The translations under genes and the position numbers were made by a program. From Streptomyces sp. NBC_01255 (GTDB taxonomy: Bacteria; Actinomycetota; Actinomycetes; Streptomycetales; Streptomycetaceae), in the NCBI RefSeq assembly GCF_036226445.1, contig NZ_CP108474.1:6510001-6574000 (forward strand): a stretch of DNA of 64,000 bases, written 5' to 3'. Below the pieces are notes generated by a model. The model was not told where the DNA came from. It saw nothing but the letters and a program-made list of their open reading frames with translations, and searched no databases. This document shows positions 13,310-21,803 of this stretch, piece after piece (position 1 is the first letter of the stretch; each line of letters opens with the position of its first letter).

Positions 13310-13330
13310 TCCCGCTTTCCTCCTTCGTCG

Positions 13331-13365
13331 AAGGGCCGTCGGACCGAGAGGTTCCGGCGGCCCTT
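13331..13365 (+). terminator. Terminator between lgt and the convergent operon
   Basis: A 13-bp stem (AAGGGCCGTCGGA with TCCGGCGGCCCTT, one wobble) encloses a 9-nt loop and is followed by TTCG. It can serve both lgt and the minus-strand operon that ends at 13,380. Confidence 0.8.
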
Positions 13366-13379
13366 TCGCGTGCCGGGGC

Positions 13380-14195
13380 TCAGGCCGTGCGGGAGGCGAG
13401 GGCGAGGACCCGGTGGGCGCCCTCCACGACCGCCGCGTCGACGAAGCGGCCGTCGGGGAGGGCCAGGGCGCCCCGGTCGGCCGCGGCCGCCGCGACGACC
13501 TCCCGCGCCGCGTCGATCTCCTCCGGGGTGGGGAGGTAGGCCCGCTCGATGACGGGGAGCTGGCGGGGGTGGATCGCGGCCCGGCCGAGGAAGCCCATCG
13601 CGCGGCCCCGGGCGCAGCCGGCGGCCAGGGCGTCCAGGTCGCCGATGTCGGGGTGGACCGACTGGGCGGGCGGGGGCAGGGCGGCCGCGCGGGCCGCGAC
13701 CACCACGCGGCTGCGCGGCCAGTCGAGCCCCCGGTCGTCCCGTACCCCGAGGTCGGCGCGGAGGTCGGCCTCGCCGAGCGCGATGCCGCGCACGGCGGGG
13801 TGGGCGGTGGCGATGGCGTACGCGTGCTCCACGGCGAGGGCGTTCTCCAGGAGCGGGTAGAGGGGGAGACCAGGGGCGAGGCCGGCGATCCGGTGGATGT
13901 CAGTGGCGTGTGTCACCTTGGGTACACGGAGACCGCAGAGGCCGGGGAGGGGGGCCAGGGTGGGGATGTCGAGCGGGGAGTGGACGCGGACGTGCACCGG
14001 GACGGGGTGGGCGTCGGCGAGCAGATCGACCGTGGCGTCGAGGGCGTACGCCTTGCGGTGCGGGGCGACCGCGTCCTCCAGGTCGACGATGACGACGTCG
14101 GCGCCGGACGACAGGGCCTTGCACACGACCTCGGGGCGGTCGCCGGGGACGTACAGCCAGGTGAGGGGAGTGCGCAGGCGCTCCATATCGTTCAT
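13380..14195 (-). CDS. HpcH/HpaI-CitE family CoA ester lyase
   Basis: This 271-residue TIM-barrel protein resembles CitE and related beta-hydroxyacyl-CoA lyases. It shows LYVPGDRPEVVCKAL near the N-terminus, the acidic metal site in VIVDLEDAV, RVPKV, and a later GEADLRADLG. The start overlaps the CoA-transferase stop by four bases. It is the last gene of the seven-gene minus-strand operon. With the CoA-transferase upstream it suggests activation of a hydroxy-acid to its CoA ester and carbon-carbon cleavage, which is an inference. The substrate is unknown. Confidence 0.82.
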   Translation of the reverse strand: MNDMERLRTPLTWLYVPGDRPEVVCKALSSGADVVIVDLEDAVAPHRKAYALDATVDLLADAHPVPVHVRVHSPLDIPTLAPLPGLCGLRVPKVTHATDIHRIAGLAPGLPLYPLLENALAVEHAYAIATAHPAVRGIALGEADLRADLGVRDDRGLDWPRSRVVVAARAAALPPPAQSVHPDIGDLDALAAGCARGRAMGFLGRAAIHPRQLPVIERAYLPTPEEIDAAREVVAAAAADRGALALPDGRFVDAAVVEGAHRVLALASRTA

Positions 14196-15433
14196 ACCGC
14201 TCCCCGGGCGCGGAGGGCGTCGATCTCGGCGGGCGTGAGGCCGAGTTCGGTGAGGACGCCGTCGGTGTCGGCGCCGTGGGGGCGGCCGGGCCAGCGGATC
14301 GCCCCGGGGGTCTCGGAGAGCCGGAAGAGCACGTTCTGCATCCTGATCGGGCCGAGTTCCGGGTCCTGCACCTCGGTGACGGTGCCGAGCGCCTGGTACT
14401 GCGGATCGTCGAGGACGTCCCGGATGTCGTAGACCGGGGCGATGGCGGCCTCGGCCTTCTCGAAGCAGGCCATGGCCTCGTCGCGGGTGTGACGCGCGAT
14501 CCAGGTGCCGACCGCCTCGTCCAGGACGTCCGCGTGCTCGGCGCGGCCCGTGCCGTCGGCGAACCACGGCTCGTCGATGAGCTCCGGACGCCCGACGAGG
14601 CGCAGCACGCGCTCGGCGATCGACTGGGCCGAGGTGGAGACGGCCACCCAGGAGCCGTCGGCGGTCCGGTAGGTGTTGCGCGGGGCGTTGTTGCGGGAGC
14701 GGTTGCCGGTGCGGGGCTGGACGTAGCCGAGCTGGTCGTACCAGAGGGGGTGGGGTCCGATGACGGAGAGCATCGGTTCGATGATCGCCATGTCGACGAC
14801 CTGGCCGCGGCCGGTCGTGTTCCTGGCGGTGAGCGCGGTCATCACCGCGTACGCGGTGGCGAGGGCGGCGATCGAGTCGGCCAGGCCGAAGGGGGGCAGG
14901 GTGGGCGGGCCGTCGGGCTCGCCGGTGATGGAGGCGAAGCCGCTCATCGCCTCGGCGAGGGTGCCGAAGCCGGGGCGGTGGGCGTACGGGCCGAACTGGC
15001 CGAAGCCGGTGACGCGGGCGAGGACGAGACGCGGGTTGACGGTGGAGAGCTCCTCCCAGCCCAGACCCCAGCGTTCCAGGGTGCCGGGGCGGAAGTTCTC
15101 CACGATCACGTCGGCGTCGGCGGCGAGCTTGAGGAGGGTGTCGCGGCCGCCCGGCGCGGAGAGATCGAGGGTGATCGTCCGCTTGTTCCGGCCGAGGACC
15201 TTCCACCACAGGCCGACACCGTCCTTGGCGGGGCCGTGGCCGCGGGACGGATCGGGCTTGCGGGGGTGCTCGACCTTGACGACGTCGGCGCCGAAGTCGC
15301 CGAGCATCGTGGCGGCGATCGGTCCGGCGAAGAGGGTCGCGAGGTCGAGCACGCGCAGTCCGTGGAGGGGCGGTGCGGCGGGAGCGGCGGTGTGCGGGGT
15401 GGTCTGCGGGGTGGTCTGCGGGGTGGTCGTCAT
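14192..15433 (-). CDS. CaiB/BaiF (class III) CoA-transferase
   Basis: This 413-residue protein belongs to the formyl-CoA/carnitine-CoA transferase family. It shows LFAGPIAATMLGDFGADVVKVE near residues 34-56, NFRPGTLERWGLG, and GFGQFGPYAHRPGFG. At the place of the catalytic aspartate, which forms the acyl anhydride in characterised members, the sequence reads VDMAIIEPML, so glutamate may take that role. The N-terminus has a repeated QTTP segment. It is coupled to ribokinase upstream and the lyase downstream (ATGA overlaps). Confidence 0.85.
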   Translation of the reverse strand: MTTTPQTTPQTTPHTAAPAAPPLHGLRVLDLATLFAGPIAATMLGDFGADVVKVEHPRKPDPSRGHGPAKDGVGLWWKVLGRNKRTITLDLSAPGGRDTLLKLAADADVIVENFRPGTLERWGLGWEELSTVNPRLVLARVTGFGQFGPYAHRPGFGTLAEAMSGFASITGEPDGPPTLPPFGLADSIAALATAYAVMTALTARNTTGRGQVVDMAIIEPMLSVIGPHPLWYDQLGYVQPRTGNRSRNNAPRNTYRTADGSWVAVSTSAQSIAERVLRLVGRPELIDEPWFADGTGRAEHADVLDEAVGTWIARHTRDEAMACFEKAEAAIAPVYDIRDVLDDPQYQALGTVTEVQDPELGPIRMQNVLFRLSETPGAIRWPGRPHGADTDGVLTELGLTPAEIDALRARGAV

Positions 15434-16350
15434 ACGGGGTCGGCCTCCAGGTCGTCGAGGGAGCCGAAGGCCGCCTCGATCTCGGTCCGGTACGGCATCG
15501 AGGTCGACGCGCCCTCGCGCTGGACGGACAGCGCGGCGGCGGTCTGCGCCCAGGCGAGCGCCTCCGGGACGGGCCGGCCCTCGCCGAGGGCGACCGCGAG
15601 GGCGCCGACGAAGGTGTCGCCGGCGGCGGTGGTGTCCACGGCCCTGACGCGGGGGGCGGGCACGGTGACCGGCTCGGCGCCGCGTGCCGCGTACAGGCTG
15701 CCGGCCGAGCCCAGCGTGACGACGACCTCGGGGACGTCCCGCAGCAGAGCCTGGGCGGCGGCGCGCGGGTCGGTGAGTCCGGTGAGCGCGGTGGCCTCGT
15801 GCTCGTTGGGGACCAGCAGGTCGGTGGCGGCGAGGAGTTCGGGAGGGAGCTGCTGGGCGGGGGCGGGCGTGAGGACGGTGCGGACGCCGAGGCGGCGGGC
15901 GGTCGTGGCGCCCTCGGTGACGGCGGAGAGGGGGAGTTCGAGCTGGAGGAGCAGGGTGTCGGCGGTGCCGATGAGGGCTTCGTCGCCGTGGCTGAGTGAG
16001 GTGACGGCGGCGTTGGCGCCGGGGACGACGACGATCGCGTTGCCGCCCTCGTCGTCGACGACGATGTGGGCGGTGCCGGACGGGCCCTCGGCGGTCCGCA
16101 GGAGGTCGGTGTCGACCGCGCAGTGCTCCAGGTTGGCCCGGAGGCGTACGCCGAAGTCGTCCGCGCCGACCGCGCCGATCATCGCCACCTCGGCGCCGGC
16201 GCGGGCGGCGGCCACGGCCTGGTTGGCGCCCTTGCCGCCGGGGACCGTGCGGAACGCGCGGCCGGTGACCGTCTCGCCGCGGGCCGGGGCCCTCGATACG
16301 AAGGCGACGAGGTCCATGTTCATGCTGCCGAGTACGACGATGCTGGTCAT
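15430..16350 (-). CDS. rbsK: Ribokinase (PfkB family)
   Basis: This 306-residue sugar kinase phosphorylates ribose to ribose 5-phosphate using ATP. The first PfkB signature is PGGKGANQAVAAARAG (37-52), and the second is DTTAAGDTFVGAL with catalytic base Asp245. It directly follows four ADP-ribosylglycohydrolase-family genes with a 4-base overlap. That context suggests it captures ribose liberated from ribosylated substrates rather than imported ribose, since no ribose ABC transporter is adjacent. Deoxyribokinase activity is an alternative. Confidence 0.88.
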   Translation of the reverse strand: MTSIVVLGSMNMDLVAFVSRAPARGETVTGRAFRTVPGGKGANQAVAAARAGAEVAMIGAVGADDFGVRLRANLEHCAVDTDLLRTAEGPSGTAHIVVDDEGGNAIVVVPGANAAVTSLSHGDEALIGTADTLLLQLELPLSAVTEGATTARRLGVRTVLTPAPAQQLPPELLAATDLLVPNEHEATALTGLTDPRAAAQALLRDVPEVVVTLGSAGSLYAARGAEPVTVPAPRVRAVDTTAAGDTFVGALAVALGEGRPVPEALAWAQTAAALSVQREGASTSMPYRTEIEAAFGSLDDLEADPV

Positions 16351-17855
16351 GGGCGTACTGCCTCCAGATGTGTCAGTTCGGCCAGGGTGTCGAAGCCGAT
16401 GTCGTCGAAGGACGGGACCGAGGTCGCGAGACGGTTCTTGAGGGGGGTGGTCCAGTGTTCGGGCAGCCGGTCGGGGTGACCGGCGAGCAGCCCGGCGACC
16501 GAACCGGCGGTGGCGCCGTTGGAGTCGGTGTCCCAGCCGCCCGACACCGCCGCGCAGACGGAGCGGGAGAAGTCGCCGTCGCCGTGGGTGAGGGCGGCGG
16601 CGAGGAGGGCGGCGTTGGGGACGGCATGGACCCAGTGGTACCCGCCGAGCCCGGCGTGCAGGCGGTCGACGACCGTGTCGAAGTCGTCGTGGGCGCGGGC
16701 GGAGTCGATGCCGAGGCGGACGGCCCGGGCGAGGCGGGAGCGGGGCGGGATCACGCCGAGTCCGGCGGTGAGCGACCGGTGGACGTCGGCGGTGCCGGTA
16801 GCGGCGGTGGCGAGGGTGGCGGCGACGAACATGGCGCCGTAGACGCCGTTCGCGGTGTGGGTGAGCGCCGCGTCCCGGTACGCCTGCGCGGCGGCGGCGG
16901 CCGGGTCGCCCGGGTGGGTCCAGCCGTGGACGTCCGCCCGGATCTGGGCGCCGATCCACTCGCGGAAGGGGTTGCGGCGGACGGCGGTGAGCGGGGGCTC
17001 GACGCCGTCGAGGAGGTTGCGGTAGGCGACGCGCTCGGCCGTGAAGGTGCGGCCGGCGGGGAGTTCGTCGAGCCAGAGGCGGGCGACGTCGGCGGTGGTG
17101 AAGCCGCGGCCGTACCGCTGGAGGAGCAGCAGGTTGAGGAGGGGGTAGTTGAGGTCGTCGTCCTCGGGCATCCCGTCGATGTTCTCGGCGAGGGAGGTGG
17201 TGGCGGAACGACGGTTCCAGGGGTGGGCGGCGAGCAGTTCGGGCGGTACGCCGCGGGCGGTGAACCAGGTCGAGAGGGGCCAGTTGCCGGCGGCGCGGGC
17301 GAGGGCGCGGATGGCGGGGAGGGGAAGCTTCTCGACGGGCTTGCCGAGCAGACACCCGGCGGCCCGCCCGAGCCAGGCGGCGTGCAGCCGGTGGAGGAGG
17401 GCGTTGCTTTCCCCCACCCCGCCCCTTCCCGAAACTCTGACGAGACCGGGGGCGCCGCCCCCGGACCCCTGGGTCCCCGGCGCTTCGCGCGGGGGGAGCC
17501 GGGGTGCTCCGCCGCCGGTCCCGGCAGGGTTGGGGGGCGGGGGTACCACCCGGGCGGAGCTCTGGGGGAGGGCGGTGAGGGGGGTCGTCAGTGCCTGGAT
17601 GCTCGGTAGCGACGTCGGTTCGTGGTGCGAGGAGGGGGTGGGGAGGGACGCAAGGGTGTCCAGGAGTTCCTCCGCGAGGGGGCGGAGGTCCGGGCGGGGC
17701 TCGGCGGAGGCGCCGGCCGTGTCCGGGGCCGGGGTGCCGCCCGCCGCCGCCCAGCGGGTGGCGATCGCGTGGGTGTCGCGGCCGTCCTCCGCCGCCTGGC
17801 GGAGCTCGTGGCCCACCAGGTCCTCCGGCTGCACCCAGGTCAGCCGGAGGTTCAC
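16347..17855 (-). CDS. ADP-ribosylglycohydrolase family protein, paralogue 1 (with N-terminal domain)
   Basis: This 502-residue protein has three parts. Residues 1-75 are a small helical region. Residues 100-150 are a Pro/Gly-rich linker encoded by intergenic-type palindromic DNA. From about 152 onward lies the ADP-ribosyl hydrolase (DraG/ARH) fold. The metal/substrate motifs are of a variant subgroup: GRAAGCLLGKPVE (164-175), EDDD at 231-234 in place of TDDT, and DTDS at 442-445. The GTG start overlaps the upstream stop. Family members remove ADP-ribose from proteins or small molecules. The substrate here is unknown. Confidence 0.82.
   Translation of the reverse strand: MNLRLTWVQPEDLVGHELRQAAEDGRDTHAIATRWAAAGGTPAPDTAGASAEPRPDLRPLAEELLDTLASLPTPSSHHEPTSLPSIQALTTPLTALPQSSARVVPPPPNPAGTGGGAPRLPPREAPGTQGSGGGAPGLVRVSGRGGVGESNALLHRLHAAWLGRAAGCLLGKPVEKLPLPAIRALARAAGNWPLSTWFTARGVPPELLAAHPWNRRSATTSLAENIDGMPEDDDLNYPLLNLLLLQRYGRGFTTADVARLWLDELPAGRTFTAERVAYRNLLDGVEPPLTAVRRNPFREWIGAQIRADVHGWTHPGDPAAAAAQAYRDAALTHTANGVYGAMFVAATLATAATGTADVHRSLTAGLGVIPPRSRLARAVRLGIDSARAHDDFDTVVDRLHAGLGGYHWVHAVPNAALLAAALTHGDGDFSRSVCAAVSGGWDTDSNGATAGSVAGLLAGHPDRLPEHWTTPLKNRLATSVPSFDDIGFDTLAELTHLEAVRP
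17446..17511 (-). repeat. Intergenic-type GC palindromes inside paralogue 1
   Basis: CCGGGGGC/GCCCCCGG (17446-17464) and following GGACCCCTGGGTCC-type and CGCTTCGCG palindromes are the sort of element usually found between Streptomyces genes. Here they are translated in frame and make up the Pro/Gly linker of the hydrolase at 16347-17855. Confidence 0.55.
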
Positions 17856-19018
17856 CGGTCCGCGCTCGTCAGCGTCGCGAACGCCGACTCGTGCGCCCGG
17901 CGCGCCTCCTCGTCCCGGGCGAAGACCTCGCGCGTCACCCGGGCCAGTGCCGCCGCCGGGGCGTGCAGGTCGAGCCGGCTCGCCTCCGCGACGCGTTTCG
18001 CCCAGTCGGCGGGGACGGCGGACTCGCCGTGCAGCGCGCCCACGATCGCGCCCGCCATTGTGGCGATCGAGTCGCAGTCACGGCCGTAGTTGACCGAGCC
18101 CAGGACCGTACGGCGGTAATCGCCCTCGCCGACGAGGAGCATGCCGAGGGCGATCGGGAGTTCCTCGATCGCGTGCAGGCGAGACGGGCGGCGGGCTCCC
18201 AGGGAGGGAGAGCGGTAGTCCGGGCCGACCGTGTCGAAGGGGGCCACCGCCGTCCGGAGCGGAGTGAGCGCGGACTCGAAGTCCGTGTGGCGGGCCGCCA
18301 CTTCGGCGACCGCTTCGATCGCCGACCTCGTGCCGTCCTTGGCGAGAGACAGGGCTGTGTCGACGACCGTGCCCGGCGTGGCGCCCGGTGCGCACGCCGC
18401 CGCTACCGCCGCCGCGAACACGCCCGCCGCCTCCCGGCCGTACGAGGACTGGTGCGCGCCGGCGACGTCGAGGGCCTCGGCGTAGGCGGCCGCCGGGTGG
18501 GCGGCGTTGACGAGTCCGACCGGTGCCATGTACATCGCGGCGCCGCAGTTGACGATGTTGCCGTCGCCGGCCTCGCGCGGGTCCACGTGGCCGTAGTGGA
18601 GCCGGGCCACGAGCCACTTCTCGGCGAGGAAGATCCGCTGGAGGGGGAGCGCCTCGGCTTCCAGCTCCGGGATCCAGACGGGGGCGCCCATGAGTTCGGG
18701 GACGAGGAAGTCCGCGACCGCGTACGCGTCGAGGTGGCCGCGGACCTTCTCGTACACCCGGATCAGGGCGTGGGTCATCAAGGTGTCGTCGGTGACGTGC
18801 CCGTCGCCCTTGTGGTACGGCGCGATGGGGCGGGCGGTGCGCCAGTCGTCGCCGTTCCAGGGGCCGACGACGCCGGTGACGCGGCCGCCGTGACGCTCCA
18901 GGATCTGCTGGGGGGTGTAGCCCTCGACGGGGCCGCCGAGCGCGTCGCCGACGGCGGCCCCGAGAAGGCTGCCGGTGATCCGGTCATCCAGGGTGGGCAC
19001 ATCCAGTGTGGGGGTCAT
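17852..19018 (-). CDS. ADP-ribosylglycohydrolase family protein, paralogue 2 (canonical motifs)
   Basis: This 388-residue protein has all the classic ARH/DraG dinuclear-metal motifs: GDALG (24-28), TDDT (76-79) and RDCDS (313-317) followed by the GAIVGALHG helix. It is therefore the paralogue most likely to be an active hydrolase of N- or O-linked ADP-ribose or ribosyl substrates. ATG 19018 is preferred since AGGTGG stands about 11 bases upstream. GTG 19033 would add five residues. The start lies inside the 3' end of paralogue 3 (35-50 base overlap), a deeper overlap than at the other junctions. Confidence 0.87.
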   Translation of the reverse strand: MTPTLDVPTLDDRITGSLLGAAVGDALGGPVEGYTPQQILERHGGRVTGVVGPWNGDDWRTARPIAPYHKGDGHVTDDTLMTHALIRVYEKVRGHLDAYAVADFLVPELMGAPVWIPELEAEALPLQRIFLAEKWLVARLHYGHVDPREAGDGNIVNCGAAMYMAPVGLVNAAHPAAAYAEALDVAGAHQSSYGREAAGVFAAAVAAACAPGATPGTVVDTALSLAKDGTRSAIEAVAEVAARHTDFESALTPLRTAVAPFDTVGPDYRSPSLGARRPSRLHAIEELPIALGMLLVGEGDYRRTVLGSVNYGRDCDSIATMAGAIVGALHGESAVPADWAKRVAEASRLDLHAPAAALARVTREVFARDEEARRAHESAFATLTSADR

Positions 19019-20546
19019 GTCGGAATTGTCCACCTGAGGTGGTCGGTTCCGTGGCTCCTAGCAGCCCGGCGAGTTCGACCAGGTCCGTCCCCGCGAACCG
19101 CGGCAGCGCGCACCCCGCGAGCGTCCGGCAGGCCTCGCGCCAGGTCGCCGGTACCGAACGGCCGCCGCCCAGCGCGCCGGTGAGCGCGCCCGCGAGCGCG
19201 GGGGCGGAGTCCGCGACCCGGGAGAGGCAGACGGCGGCCGGTACCGCGGCCGTCATCTCGCCCCGGGCGGCGGTGGCGAGGGCGAGGGCGACCGGGACGG
19301 TCTCGGCCGCGGCGATCCCGTAGCTGTAGACGTGGTCCACGATCTGGTGCTCCAGGAGCGGGACCAGTTCGAAGGCCGAACCGGCCGTCTGGGCCAGCTT
19401 CACCGCGTACCGGGCGTTGCGGCCGATCTCGGTGACGGGCGGGAGTTCGGCGAGCGCCGCCTCGACGGCCTCGTCGACCGTCGCCCCGCCGAGCGCCGCG
19501 GCGATGGCCGCCGCCGTCGCGCGGGCGCCGTGGACGCCGTCGCCGTCCTGGGTGTACCGGGCGTCGAACTCGGCGAGTTCGGCGGCGGCGCGCGGGTCGC
19601 CGGGGTGGACGACGGCGAGGACGGCGGCGCGGACGCAGGCGGCGTCGTCGAAGTAGTGCGGGTTGTCGTGGCCGGTGGCGGGCGGGCGCAGGCCGGTGGC
19701 GAGGTTGCCGAGCCCGGCGCGTACGGAGATCCGGGCGCGGAGGGGGAGGATGGCGGACTCGACCTCGGGGGCGCGGTCGGCAGCGGCGGCGACCTGGCCG
19801 GCGAGGGCGTTCCAGGCGAGGTCCACGGCGGCGCGGAGGCGGCGCTCCGGGGGGAGGCCGGCGAAGACGGGGCCGGAGGCGGTGAGGATCGCCTCGGCGG
19901 TGAAGGCCGCCCACTCGGCGTCGTCGGAGGGGCCGAGGCGGAGGGGCTCGGGGGGCTGGTTGAGGGCGATGGGGACGGGGAGGGTGGTCGTCGCGTTCTG
20001 CTCGGCGAAGGTGTCGAGCTCGCGGGTGAGGCGGCGGGTCCACTCCGGCATGCGGGCGGCGCGGTGGCGGGCGGCGGGCCAGCCGGCGGCGTCGCCTGCG
20101 GCGAGCCCGAGGAGGAGGCCCTCGACGGCGTCGCGGCCGGCCCTGCGGGTGGCCTCGGGCTCCGGGGCCTCGTGGGTGCCGCCCCACGAACCGGTGCCGC
20201 GTACCGGGGCGGATCCAGGCGGGGCGTCGGCGCCCGGCAGCGGGGCGGGGTCCTGCGGGTCACCGAGCAGGGGGCCGGTACCCGGCATCGGGGGCTGTGC
20301 CCACCCTCCCCCAGAGCTTCGCATGGGAGGTTCCCCCAGCCCTGCGGGACGATTGCCCACAGCGGTGGTGGCGGCGCACACAGCGGTGGCGCCCGCAGCG
20401 GTGGCCGCGCCAGGGGCGGCGGCCCCGGTGGGGACGTGGGCGGCCGCGCCCGTGGCGGTGGCCCCGGTCCTGGCGGCGGCGGTGGCCCCGGCGATCCCGG
20501 TGGCCGTGTCGGCGGCCGTGGGTTCCATCGTGATGTCCGCGCTCAT
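18984..20546 (-). CDS. ADP-ribosylglycohydrolase family protein, paralogue 3 (degenerate metal site)
   Basis: This is a 520-residue protein. Residues 1-130 are low-complexity Ala/Thr/Gly/Pro, part of it encoded by a palindromic repeat. The ARH-like fold starts near 136. The motifs are eroded compared with paralogues 2 and 4: GDAAG (151-155), SDDA (207-210) instead of TDDT, and RVADS (443-447), where the first aspartate of RDxDS is valine. Loss of a metal ligand suggests altered or no hydrolysis, perhaps a binding subunit. The ATG start overlaps the stop of paralogue 4. Confidence 0.8.
   Translation of the reverse strand: MSADITMEPTAADTATGIAGATAAARTGATATGAAAHVPTGAAAPGAATAAGATAVCAATTAVGNRPAGLGEPPMRSSGGGWAQPPMPGTGPLLGDPQDPAPLPGADAPPGSAPVRGTGSWGGTHEAPEPEATRRAGRDAVEGLLLGLAAGDAAGWPAARHRAARMPEWTRRLTRELDTFAEQNATTTLPVPIALNQPPEPLRLGPSDDAEWAAFTAEAILTASGPVFAGLPPERRLRAAVDLAWNALAGQVAAAADRAPEVESAILPLRARISVRAGLGNLATGLRPPATGHDNPHYFDDAACVRAAVLAVVHPGDPRAAAELAEFDARYTQDGDGVHGARATAAAIAAALGGATVDEAVEAALAELPPVTEIGRNARYAVKLAQTAGSAFELVPLLEHQIVDHVYSYGIAAAETVPVALALATAARGEMTAAVPAAVCLSRVADSAPALAGALTGALGGGRSVPATWREACRTLAGCALPRFAGTDLVELAGLLGATEPTTSGGQFRHDPHTGCAHPG
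20298..20363 (-). repeat. Palindromic repeat copy inside paralogue 3
   Basis: The 20 bases at 20344-20363 (GCGGGACGATTGCCCACAGC) are the exact reverse complement of 47719-47738 in the spacer after pepN. Here the element includes CTCCCCCAGAGCTTC-type flanking sequence and is read in frame as residues of the disordered N-terminus, including AVGNRPAG at 62-69. Confidence 0.75.
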
Positions 20547-21538
20547 GACAGGGTCTCCTCCGGGGTCAGAAGGTCCGCGACGTCCAGGACGTGGTAGCCG
20601 CGCATCGAGGGCAGGCAGCTGCCGGTGACCGGGGCGATCGCCGTCGCCCATTCCTCCGGGATCGCCGGAGCGCCCGACATCGCTCCGGCCAGGGCGCCGG
20701 CGACCGCTGCCGTCGTGTCGGCGTCGCGGCCCATGTTGACCGCGGTCAGGACCGCCGTACGGAAGTCCCCGCGGGCCGCCGCGAAGGCGCCGAAGGCCAG
20801 GCCCACCGCCTCCGGTGCCAGGTCCGTCCACGGGTAGCCGCCGATGACGACCGCCGAGCGGACCTGACGCTCGCGGGTGAGCGGGTCCGGCTGGACGCGC
20901 TGGGCGGCGACGACCGCGCGGCGCAGGGAGCGGGCCGTCCAGGAGTCCATCGGGACGACGGAGAGGGCCGCCGCGATGATCGAGGTCACCCCCGCGCCCG
21001 CCATCGCCGCCGCGACGCCCGCGGCGACGGCCTGGCCCCCGTAGATGCCTTCTCCCTCGTGGCTGACGCTGCCGTCGATCGCGACGAGGCGCGCCGCCTC
21101 CGCCGGGCGTCCGGCGGCGAAGACCCCGAACGGTGCGGCGCGCATCGCGAGCCCGTCGCTCCAGGCGTGGCGGTGCTGGGCGGAGATGGGCGCGGCGAGT
21201 CCCCGGCGAAGGTTCTCCAGCGTGCCGCGCTCCGAGAAGCCCGCACCGCGGAAGGGGCCTTCGTCGAGGTCGGCGATCCAGTGGTGCCAGGCCCGTTCGA
21301 CGTGGTGGACGGTGAGCGCCGAGCCGTGCCGGGCGAGGAGCAGGGCCGAGAAGATCGCGTACTCGGTGTCGTCGGTGCCCGCCGGACGGTCCGTCACGAA
21401 GCCCTCGATGCGGCCCCATCGGCGGCGGATCTCCGAGGGGCGCATGTTCTCCGCGGGGGCTCCGAGGGCGTCGCCGACGGCGAGGCCGAGGAGCGCCCCT
21501 CTCGCCCGTTCACGCGTGTCGCATGCCGTGGTCGTCAT
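20543..21538 (-). CDS. ADP-ribosylglycohydrolase family protein, paralogue 4 (first gene of operon)
   Basis: This compact 331-residue member has the complete motifs GDALG (22-26), TDDT (55-58) and RDADT (271-275). It is the promoter-proximal gene of the seven-gene operon. The ATG at 21538 has a GAAGGGG Shine-Dalgarno, and an extension to 21640 would add an Arg-rich segment without family similarity. It and paralogue 2 are the best candidates for active enzymes. The 265-base gap to the divergent transporter gene holds the operon promoter, which could not be pinned down by eye. Confidence 0.87.
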   Translation of the reverse strand: MTTTACDTRERARGALLGLAVGDALGAPAENMRPSEIRRRWGRIEGFVTDRPAGTDDTEYAIFSALLLARHGSALTVHHVERAWHHWIADLDEGPFRGAGFSERGTLENLRRGLAAPISAQHRHAWSDGLAMRAAPFGVFAAGRPAEAARLVAIDGSVSHEGEGIYGGQAVAAGVAAAMAGAGVTSIIAAALSVVPMDSWTARSLRRAVVAAQRVQPDPLTRERQVRSAVVIGGYPWTDLAPEAVGLAFGAFAAARGDFRTAVLTAVNMGRDADTTAAVAGALAGAMSGAPAIPEEWATAIAPVTGSCLPSMRGYHVLDVADLLTPEETLS

Positions 21539-21685
21539 TCTCGCGGCCCCTTCCTCGGTGGGGGCGCGCAGTTCGGCGCCCCGATGCCTGGATCTGTGCC
21601 ACCGCGGGCCGCGAACTCGCCGAAGAAACGTCTCTGTCACCCGGCTGACACCTCGCCAGAATCAGGTTCACCCGGCACGCAACTC

Positions 21686-21701
21686 CTAAGGGGGGCCTTA
21701 G
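21686..21701 (+). promoter_or_regulatory. Palindrome upstream of VIT1-type gene
   Basis: CTAAGG-GGGG-CCTTAG lies in the divergent spacer, 103 bases before the transporter ATG. It could be an operator for either direction. It does not match the DmdR/IdeR iron box closely. Confidence 0.4.
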
Positions 21702-21803
21702 TAAGTACGGCCTGCCTTGCTGGCGGGCCCCTTACATCGCGCGTATTTTCGAGGTGTTGGGGGCGGCGGGTGCGACCCGGCCCGCCGGAACAAGGGGAGA
21801 GTC

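Follow-up and report, generated by a model that had tools for sequence, protein, structure and literature searches.

In Escherichia coli, the yegTUV operon codes for a nucleoside-type transporter of the major facilitator superfamily (MFS), the ADP-ribosylglycohydrolase (ARH)-family protein YegU and the PfkB kinase YegV, and its function is given as unknown (PMC10819704). This is the architecture nearest to the subject of the present work, a seven-gene operon in the 64,000-nt stretch of Streptomyces sp. NBC_01255 analysed here (hereafter the window; contig NZ_CP108474.1, positions 6,510,001 to 6,574,000, or G000:C1:6510001-6574000, G000 being the window's genome), as it likewise brings together a transporter, an ARH-family hydrolase and a PfkB-type kinase in one operon. 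The differences are an MFS instead of a CUT1 transporter, a GntR-type instead of a LacI regulator, one ARH instead of four (designated ARHa to ARHd below), and the lack of a CoA-transferase or lyase. The operon of the window is probably a catabolic one, dedicated to a conjugate of ribose with a malate-type hydroxy-dicarboxylate that is taken up from outside, with the ARH folds serving as ribosidases and not for ADP-ribosylation; the substrate, the order of steps and the partnership of ARHa with ARHb are what we infer. The LacI repressor, the operator and the CUT1 transporter present in relatives point to the uptake and catabolism of a small glycoside rather than to protein de-ADP-ribosylation.

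DraG, ARH1 and ARH3 (PF03747) have the fold family and the Glu and Asp motifs in common with ARHa, ARHc and ARHd, whereas the operon ARHs lack the GNG loop, include one member, ARHb, with a degenerate metal site, do not reach equivalog cut-offs and stand in a sugar-type operon context. LacI/CUT1 glycoside-utilisation operons are a general type in actinobacteria, and the relatives of the window's operon show the same repressor, palindromic operator, permeases, solute-binding protein (SBP), hydrolases and sugar kinase; the differences are the ARH-fold hydrolases, the CoA-transferase/lyase branch and, in the window, the missing repressor and operator. The itaconate/citramalate degradation scheme (Rip/Ict-Ich-Ccl) likewise includes a CoA-transferase and a CitE-like C-C lyase, whereas the operon has no hydratase and its lyase scores 122.9 bits against the cut-off of 375 bits for the RipC/Ccl equivalog family NF038242. 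We take SCO2028 to SCO2031 of S. coelicolor to be ARHa to ARHd, on the basis of four consecutive numbers and the S. coelicolor map, and not of a sequence comparison. In PMC9411070 these four are named as uncharacterised DraG/ARH homologues, four of the eight listed for that species, and are discussed as part of ADP-ribosylation; PMC5087735 lists SCO2028-2030 only, and according to PMC13036486 neither SCO2028 nor SCO2030, when purified, acted detectably on U-alpha-ADPr. The ADP-ribosylglycohydrolase gene located between two peptide-ligase genes in firmicutes, described in the R2K ATP-grasp paper (PMC4431377), has a setting different from that of the operon. The literature search, which covered open-licence PMC papers, found no description of the pathway, in agreement with the first-pass annotation, which had named no characterised pathway of such composition.

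The genes and adjoining features are the following (window coordinates):

20543..21538, minus strand, ARHa, hydrolase of the ARH/DraG fold, 331 aa
18984..20546, minus strand, ARHb, divergent ARH paralogue, 520 aa, with a Pro/Ala-rich N-terminus
17852..19018, minus strand, ARHc, ARH hydrolase, 388 aa, with an alternative GTG start at 19033
16347..17855, minus strand, ARHd, variant ARH hydrolase, 502 aa, with a conserved N-terminal segment of ~90 aa
15430..16350, minus strand, ribokinase, above the TIGR02152 cut-off
14192..15433, minus strand, family III CoA-transferase (CaiB/BaiF)
13380..14195, minus strand, CitE-like C-C lyase (HpcH_HpaI)
13310..13379, minus strand, GC-rich hairpin in the gap separating CitE from the convergent gene, a possible terminator
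21539..21803, no strand, intergenic region shared with the divergent VIT-family gene

The seven co-directional minus-strand genes run from 21538 to 13380, and the first-pass description of an operon with mostly 4-base overlaps is borne out, such overlaps being found at five of the six junctions: ATGA at ARHa/ARHb, ARHd/ribokinase, ribokinase/CaiB and CaiB/CitE, and GTGA at ARHc/ARHd. ARHb and ARHc overlap by 35 bases (start at 19018) or 50 bases (start at 19033). Pfam and NCBIfam agree with the original naming of four ARHs, a ribokinase, a CoA-transferase and a CitE-like lyase, with PF03747 found in all four ARHs at 207.7, 125.6, 177.6 and 163.2 bits (cut-off 26.2) and PfkB, CoA_transf_3 and HpcH_HpaI in the remaining three proteins. 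The ratio of non-synonymous to synonymous substitution rates (dN/dS) is 0.075-0.399 for all seven genes, which corresponds to purifying selection (21 comparisons, three Streptomyces relatives). Because all seven genes are under purifying selection and their order is conserved, a chance array of open reading frames is ruled out and the operon is, from the sequence evidence, real and old.

The third ARH gene, ARHc, was used as the operon marker in genome samples. The class sample of 246 genomes contains it in 43, belonging to five families, and the regions of all 43 were labelled: 18 are among the 22 members of the genus in this sample, and 25 come from four other families, namely f21 (19 genomes), f19 (four), f17 and f38 (one each), with a protein from the f21 clusters having named relatives in Jiangella, Haloactinopolyspora and Phytoactinopolyspora. 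The order ARHa-b-c-d is present in 22 of the 25 genomes from other families, with L056 and L087 cut by contig ends, and the f38 locus L055 holds a rearranged set, CaiB-CitE-LacI-transporter-ARHc-d-a-b, so it is the gene set, not just the order, that is retained. Within the genus, the six non-ribokinase genes are ordered in 17 of the 18 genomes, G228 being cut by a contig end. The named Streptomyces loci, filed as Streptomyces or Kitasatospora, are the best 80, from which near-identical records may have been left out and among which ARHc identity is up to 96%; gene order was counted in the 67 longer than 19 kb. All seven genes stand in the window's order in 55 of these, ribokinase alone is missing in 11, and one (L098) has partial, rearranged pieces, while the interval between gltB and lgt holds the operon in 64 of the 67. 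All 8 matches in a phylum-wide sample of 296 were Streptomyces, which leaves the class sample as the basis for the spread to other families. The conservation check proposed with the first-pass annotation has therein been carried out, and the order is kept far beyond close relatives.

Several genomes depart from the usual arrangement. The ARH genes of G012 are split over three places, and ARHb and ribokinase were not detected in the region of G010. The Streptomyces genome G014 has a lone ARHa between lgt and gltB (L083:8178-9200) and, on another contig, a LacI-transporter-ARH operon without ribokinase (L072). Many relatives carry a gene for a ~638-aa protein between ribokinase and CaiB (e.g. 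L052:6523-8445 and L053:10548-12464). Proteins of this type were found in 16 of the 246 class genomes, all of them with ARHc, and are encoded before CaiB in 14 f21 genomes and one f17 genome, the sixteenth copy, that of G246, being elsewhere; homologues also occur in Micromonospora and Nonomuraea. Pfam recognised only a C-terminal FGE/SUMF1-like domain in it, and the N-terminal ~450 aa had no match.

In the other families the ARH genes are preceded by genes for LacI, two permeases and a CUT1 SBP, as identified with Pfam on examples. The SBP and both permeases adjoin the ARHs in all 23 non-Streptomyces genomes showing that side, and LacI is linked in all 22 testable ones. Of the 28 LacI-linked loci, 27 have a LacI-type palindrome, GKAAACGTTTMC, with at most one mismatch and no more than 260 nt upstream of the LacI match, and the remaining one, L209, carries a form with two mismatches twice. 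Of the 92 Streptomyces loci without LacI, two of which are repeats from duplicate genomes (L093/L078 and L096/L231), one has it at up to one mismatch and six at two mismatches; the matches number 63 in total, in 3.03 Mb. The linked LacI/transporter form occurs within Streptomyces as well, namely in L072 and five of the 80 named loci (L118, L151, L152, L154 and L156), and in L151 and L154 it sits in the usual gltB-lgt interval. The best NCBIfam score of the relatives' LacI is to RbsR, below the cut-off.

The window itself contains no LacI-type operator match, and none is present in 21539..21803 even within two mismatches; its genome has no evident LacI orthologue, only distant paralogues (best 39%). 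The best match of this genome to the relatives' SBP is at G000:C1:2018816-2020108. It belongs to an unlinked CUT1 transporter, L188:8814-11787 (G000:C1 ~2018813-2021786), consisting of an SBP and two permeases orthologous to the linked one, and neither LacI nor another regulator lies alongside this locus. Scans for a remaining operator, in the window as well as around the unlinked transporter, found none. Among 39 genus genomes, an SBP orthologue was found in 23 of 32 with the operon and one of seven without it (Fisher p 0.008, kinship ignored), with the operon-absent status of G008, G017 and G018 resting on an ARHd search, and it is physically linked to the operon only in G014 among the 23. 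It appears from these sequences that most of the Streptomyces seen, that of the window included, no longer have the repressor and operator, and have a transporter that is either unlinked or absent. The simplest history would be that a complete LacI-controlled uptake operon reached the genus, and that most strains then lost the repressor and operator and unlinked the transporter.

In a maximum-likelihood tree of 45 rows, ARHb, ARHc and ARHd each form one group (100/100), as does ARHa (96/77), each group spanning three to five families, with ARHa sister to ARHb (97/90); the remaining ARHs found in the window's genome are on long branches of unsure placement. A recent tandem duplication of one ARH is ruled out by the four separate multi-family groups. 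The claim of four hydrolases holds in part: the Glu and both Asp metal motifs of ARHa, ARHc and ARHd are intact in the rows covering them (EDDD and GWDTDS in ARHd), but the metal site of ARHb is degenerate, with the catalytic Glu replaced in all 25 rows and, in all 24 rows covering the site, the first Asp of GxDxD (GRDADT) as well. ARHb as a pseudogene is ruled out by its dN/dS of 0.12-0.23 and by the identical altered motifs in relatives.

The GNG loop, which in DraG and ARH3 holds the diphosphate of ADP-ribose, is found in none of the four ARH alignments (28, 25, 28 and 37 rows). Where DraG reads AGNGAAMR, ARHa has WSDGLAMR (WSDG(L/A)AMR in 28/28 rows), ARHb FDDAACVR (FDD(A/G)A in 25/25), ARHc VNCGAAMY (28/28) and ARHd EWIGAQIR (of the G-A-x-I-R type in 37/37), while GNG is retained in two other ARHs of the window's genome, located at 7.03 and 2.29 Mb. 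The scores to the DraG equivalog TIGR02662 are 77.1 and 52.2 bits with a cut-off of 337.05, and the best score to the Tri1 equivalog NF041672 is 55.2 bits with a cut-off of 490. Outside the operon, ARHd-type paralogues have similar permeases nearby in five of the ten loci fetched (L059, L060, L061, L062 and L064), and ARHa-ARHb pairs adjoin LacI and permeases in all three loci seen (L060, L192 and L200); the ARH fold family thus seems, from gene neighbourhoods, to be tied to sugar uptake more widely.

The ribokinase passes TIGR02152 (317.4 against 299.65 bits) with its motifs kept, and is the sole match to this family in the window's genome at E up to 1e-40. It was found in 22 of 24 testable genomes of other families, not being seen in L054 and L055, and in 13 of the 18 genus genomes of the class sample. 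A census of 12 genomes, also at E up to 1e-40, revealed a ribokinase-type gene elsewhere in all eight ribokinase-less operon genomes tested (266.7-297.6 bits), the operon copy only in G000 and G202, and both an operon and an outside copy in G013 and G141. The linkage of the ribokinase to the hydrolases, as first proposed, stands for the operon of the window, yet across the genus this gene is the one most often missing. The outside ribokinases fit ribose as a product that any ribokinase could phosphorylate.

The candidate catalytic Asp of CaiB in FGLADSIAAL is conserved, and the CitE candidate residues Glu117, Asp144 and Asp253 are invariant in a ten-row alignment; the candidate catalytic residues of both are also retained in the commonest forms (132 and 131 rows). 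Glu117 and Asp144 are presumed by us to be metal ligands, and Asp253 and the CaiB Asp to be catalytic. Of the 24 non-Streptomyces genomes testable for it (L201 is cut), 23 have the CaiB-CitE pair in the cluster, with CitE 1-2 kb from CaiB in L058 and L085; in the exception, L054, the contig breaks off 1.8 kb beyond ARHd. The pair is found in every one of the 67 long named Streptomyces loci, including those where ribokinase is lost. The early suggestion of a separate acid branch, formed by the CoA-transferase and the lyase, is supported. CitE as such was found in 77 of the 246 class genomes at E up to 1e-50. Pairs without ARHs are present in L193-L197 and L199 (in L199 with CaiB apart), and L198 has a more distant CaiB (47%). 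Within these six ARH-less loci, MmgE/PrpD and PF04199 cyclases adjoin the pair in L195-L197, IclR regulators resembling BhcR but below its cut-off are found in L196, L197 and L199, an allantoinase-like enzyme in L195 and a DctM transporter in L194. Such neighbours point to hydroxy-dicarboxylates such as malate or citramalate derivatives. In L192:4098-15946 an ARHa-ARHb pair, which is divergent from LacI and permeases, is separated by ~8 kb from a CaiB-CitE pair; this genome has no ARHc match, and the locus is possibly a reduced version of the system.

In the proposed pathway, a CUT1 ABC transporter under a LacI repressor would import the ribose conjugate, as in the form of the other families, and ARHa, ARHc and ARHd would act as metal-dependent ARH-fold hydrolases cutting the ribosyl bond or bonds, with ARHb as a partner or altered subunit of its sister ARHa. 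The ribokinase would convert ribose to ribose 5-phosphate. The CaiB-type transferase would attach CoA to the acid part, presumably a malate-, citramalate- or hydroxymethylglutarate-like hydroxy-dicarboxylate, and the CitE-like lyase would then cleave the product to give an acyl-CoA (such as acetyl-CoA) plus a 2-oxo acid. It is quite possible, if somewhat short of probable, that the ARH/DraG fold represents an unrecognised class of glycoside hydrolases for ADP-free ribosides, three or four copies of which, together with LacI and CUT1, dismantle a widespread undescribed conjugate of ribose with a hydroxy-dicarboxylate.

The ARHs could instead reverse the ADP-ribosylation of proteins, nucleic acids or small molecules, with the ribokinase and CoA enzymes clearing the products. 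The presence of PF03747 in each of the four ARHs, the retention of the Glu and Asp motifs in three of them and the listing of SCO2028-2031 among the S. coelicolor hydrolases of ADP-ribosylation (PMC9411070 and PMC5087735) agree with this, but the GNG loop is absent from all four, the DraG equivalog scores are far from the cut-off, no ADP-ribosyltransferase is found by Pfam among the seven operon genes, and the purified SCO2028 and SCO2030 were inactive on U-alpha-ADPr, the single substrate concerned (PMC13036486). Since the relatives also carry LacI, the operator and the CUT1 transporter, this explanation is considered improbable, and the pathway of ribose stripping and recycling suggested by the first-pass annotation is supported as linked small-glycoside catabolism but not as protein de-ADP-ribosylation. 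A serious variant, though an unlikely one, is that in Streptomyces the pathway has turned inward and recycles or detoxifies an endogenous riboside (a damaged nucleoside or the strain's own conjugate) independently of uptake. It would account for the lack of operator matches in the window and in all but one of the 92 unlinked loci, for the missing LacI in most Streptomyces loci, for the nine of 32 operon-bearing genomes without a transporter orthologue and for the fixed gltB-lgt position in 64 of 67 long named loci; against it, the other 23 of 32 do have the transporter, unlinked except in G014, and the linked form persists within the genus. CaiB-CitE might also be an independent dicarboxylic-acid module merely sharing a transcript with the riboside genes, as related pairs without ARHs exist in several genomes (L193-L197, L199) and as, in the f19 genome of L054, the pair is not seen beside the ARHs before the contig ends and a related pair is on another contig (L193). 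This is quite improbable given that the pair is clustered in 23 of 24 testable non-Streptomyces genomes and all 67 long named Streptomyces loci, is present in the rearranged f38 cluster too, and is kept where ribokinase is lost.

The catabolism of an imported ribose-hydroxydicarboxylate conjugate has a number of observations weighing against it as well. Nine of the 32 operon-bearing genus genomes lack the transporter orthologue, G001 with its 79% completeness being one of the nine, and the orthologue is present in one genome without the operon. As CUT1 transporters are mostly importers of oligosaccharides, the substrate might exceed a simple riboside in size. No gene of the operon is missing more often than ribokinase (11 of 67 long named loci), the outside copies score just under the family cut-off of 299.65 bits, and the contrast of eight of eight against two of four genomes with a ribokinase elsewhere comes from a sample too small for significance. 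The functional weight given to the loss of GNG comes from the role ascribed to the loop, and the solved ARH MJ1187 has SCGAAMR at this place, so the loop varies across the family. CaiB and CitE are far below the NCBIfam cut-offs of characterised families, with the curated families naming no substrate; CitE scores show no clear break (weakest operon value 2.4e-93, best non-operon value 1.1e-111 in G246), and the assignment of the pair to dicarboxylates follows from gene context.

From the linked LacI, operator and CUT1 genes we predict that a fold known chiefly from work on ADP-ribosylation has a second biochemical role, and that there is a ribose conjugate of sufficient importance to have an operon dedicated to it in at least five families. 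In the relatives these elements are also genetic handles on the substrate, consisting of a repressor-controlled operon and a binding protein that can be screened with ligands. If the ARHs are a ribosidase class, half of the DraG/ARH homologues listed for the Streptomyces model would belong to carbohydrate catabolism and not to signalling.

One flank of the operon has, as we label the genes from their translations, a VIT-family gene and gltB, and the opposite flank lgt, a DsbA-like gene and trpB. The hairpin downstream of CitE exceeds shuffled sequences only weakly (z -1.38), and scans for sigma-70 promoters and T-tract terminators gave no matches. A near-palindromic CTCCTAAGGGGGGCCTTAGTAAG is located at 21683-21705, between the divergent VIT-family gene and ARHa, and possibly serves to regulate the VIT gene. 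Elsewhere in the genome, a fifth ARHd-type protein (~46-48% identical) is encoded directly after a BCCT betaine/carnitine/choline transporter gene at L067:7955-10726 (G000:C1 ~1721954-1724725).

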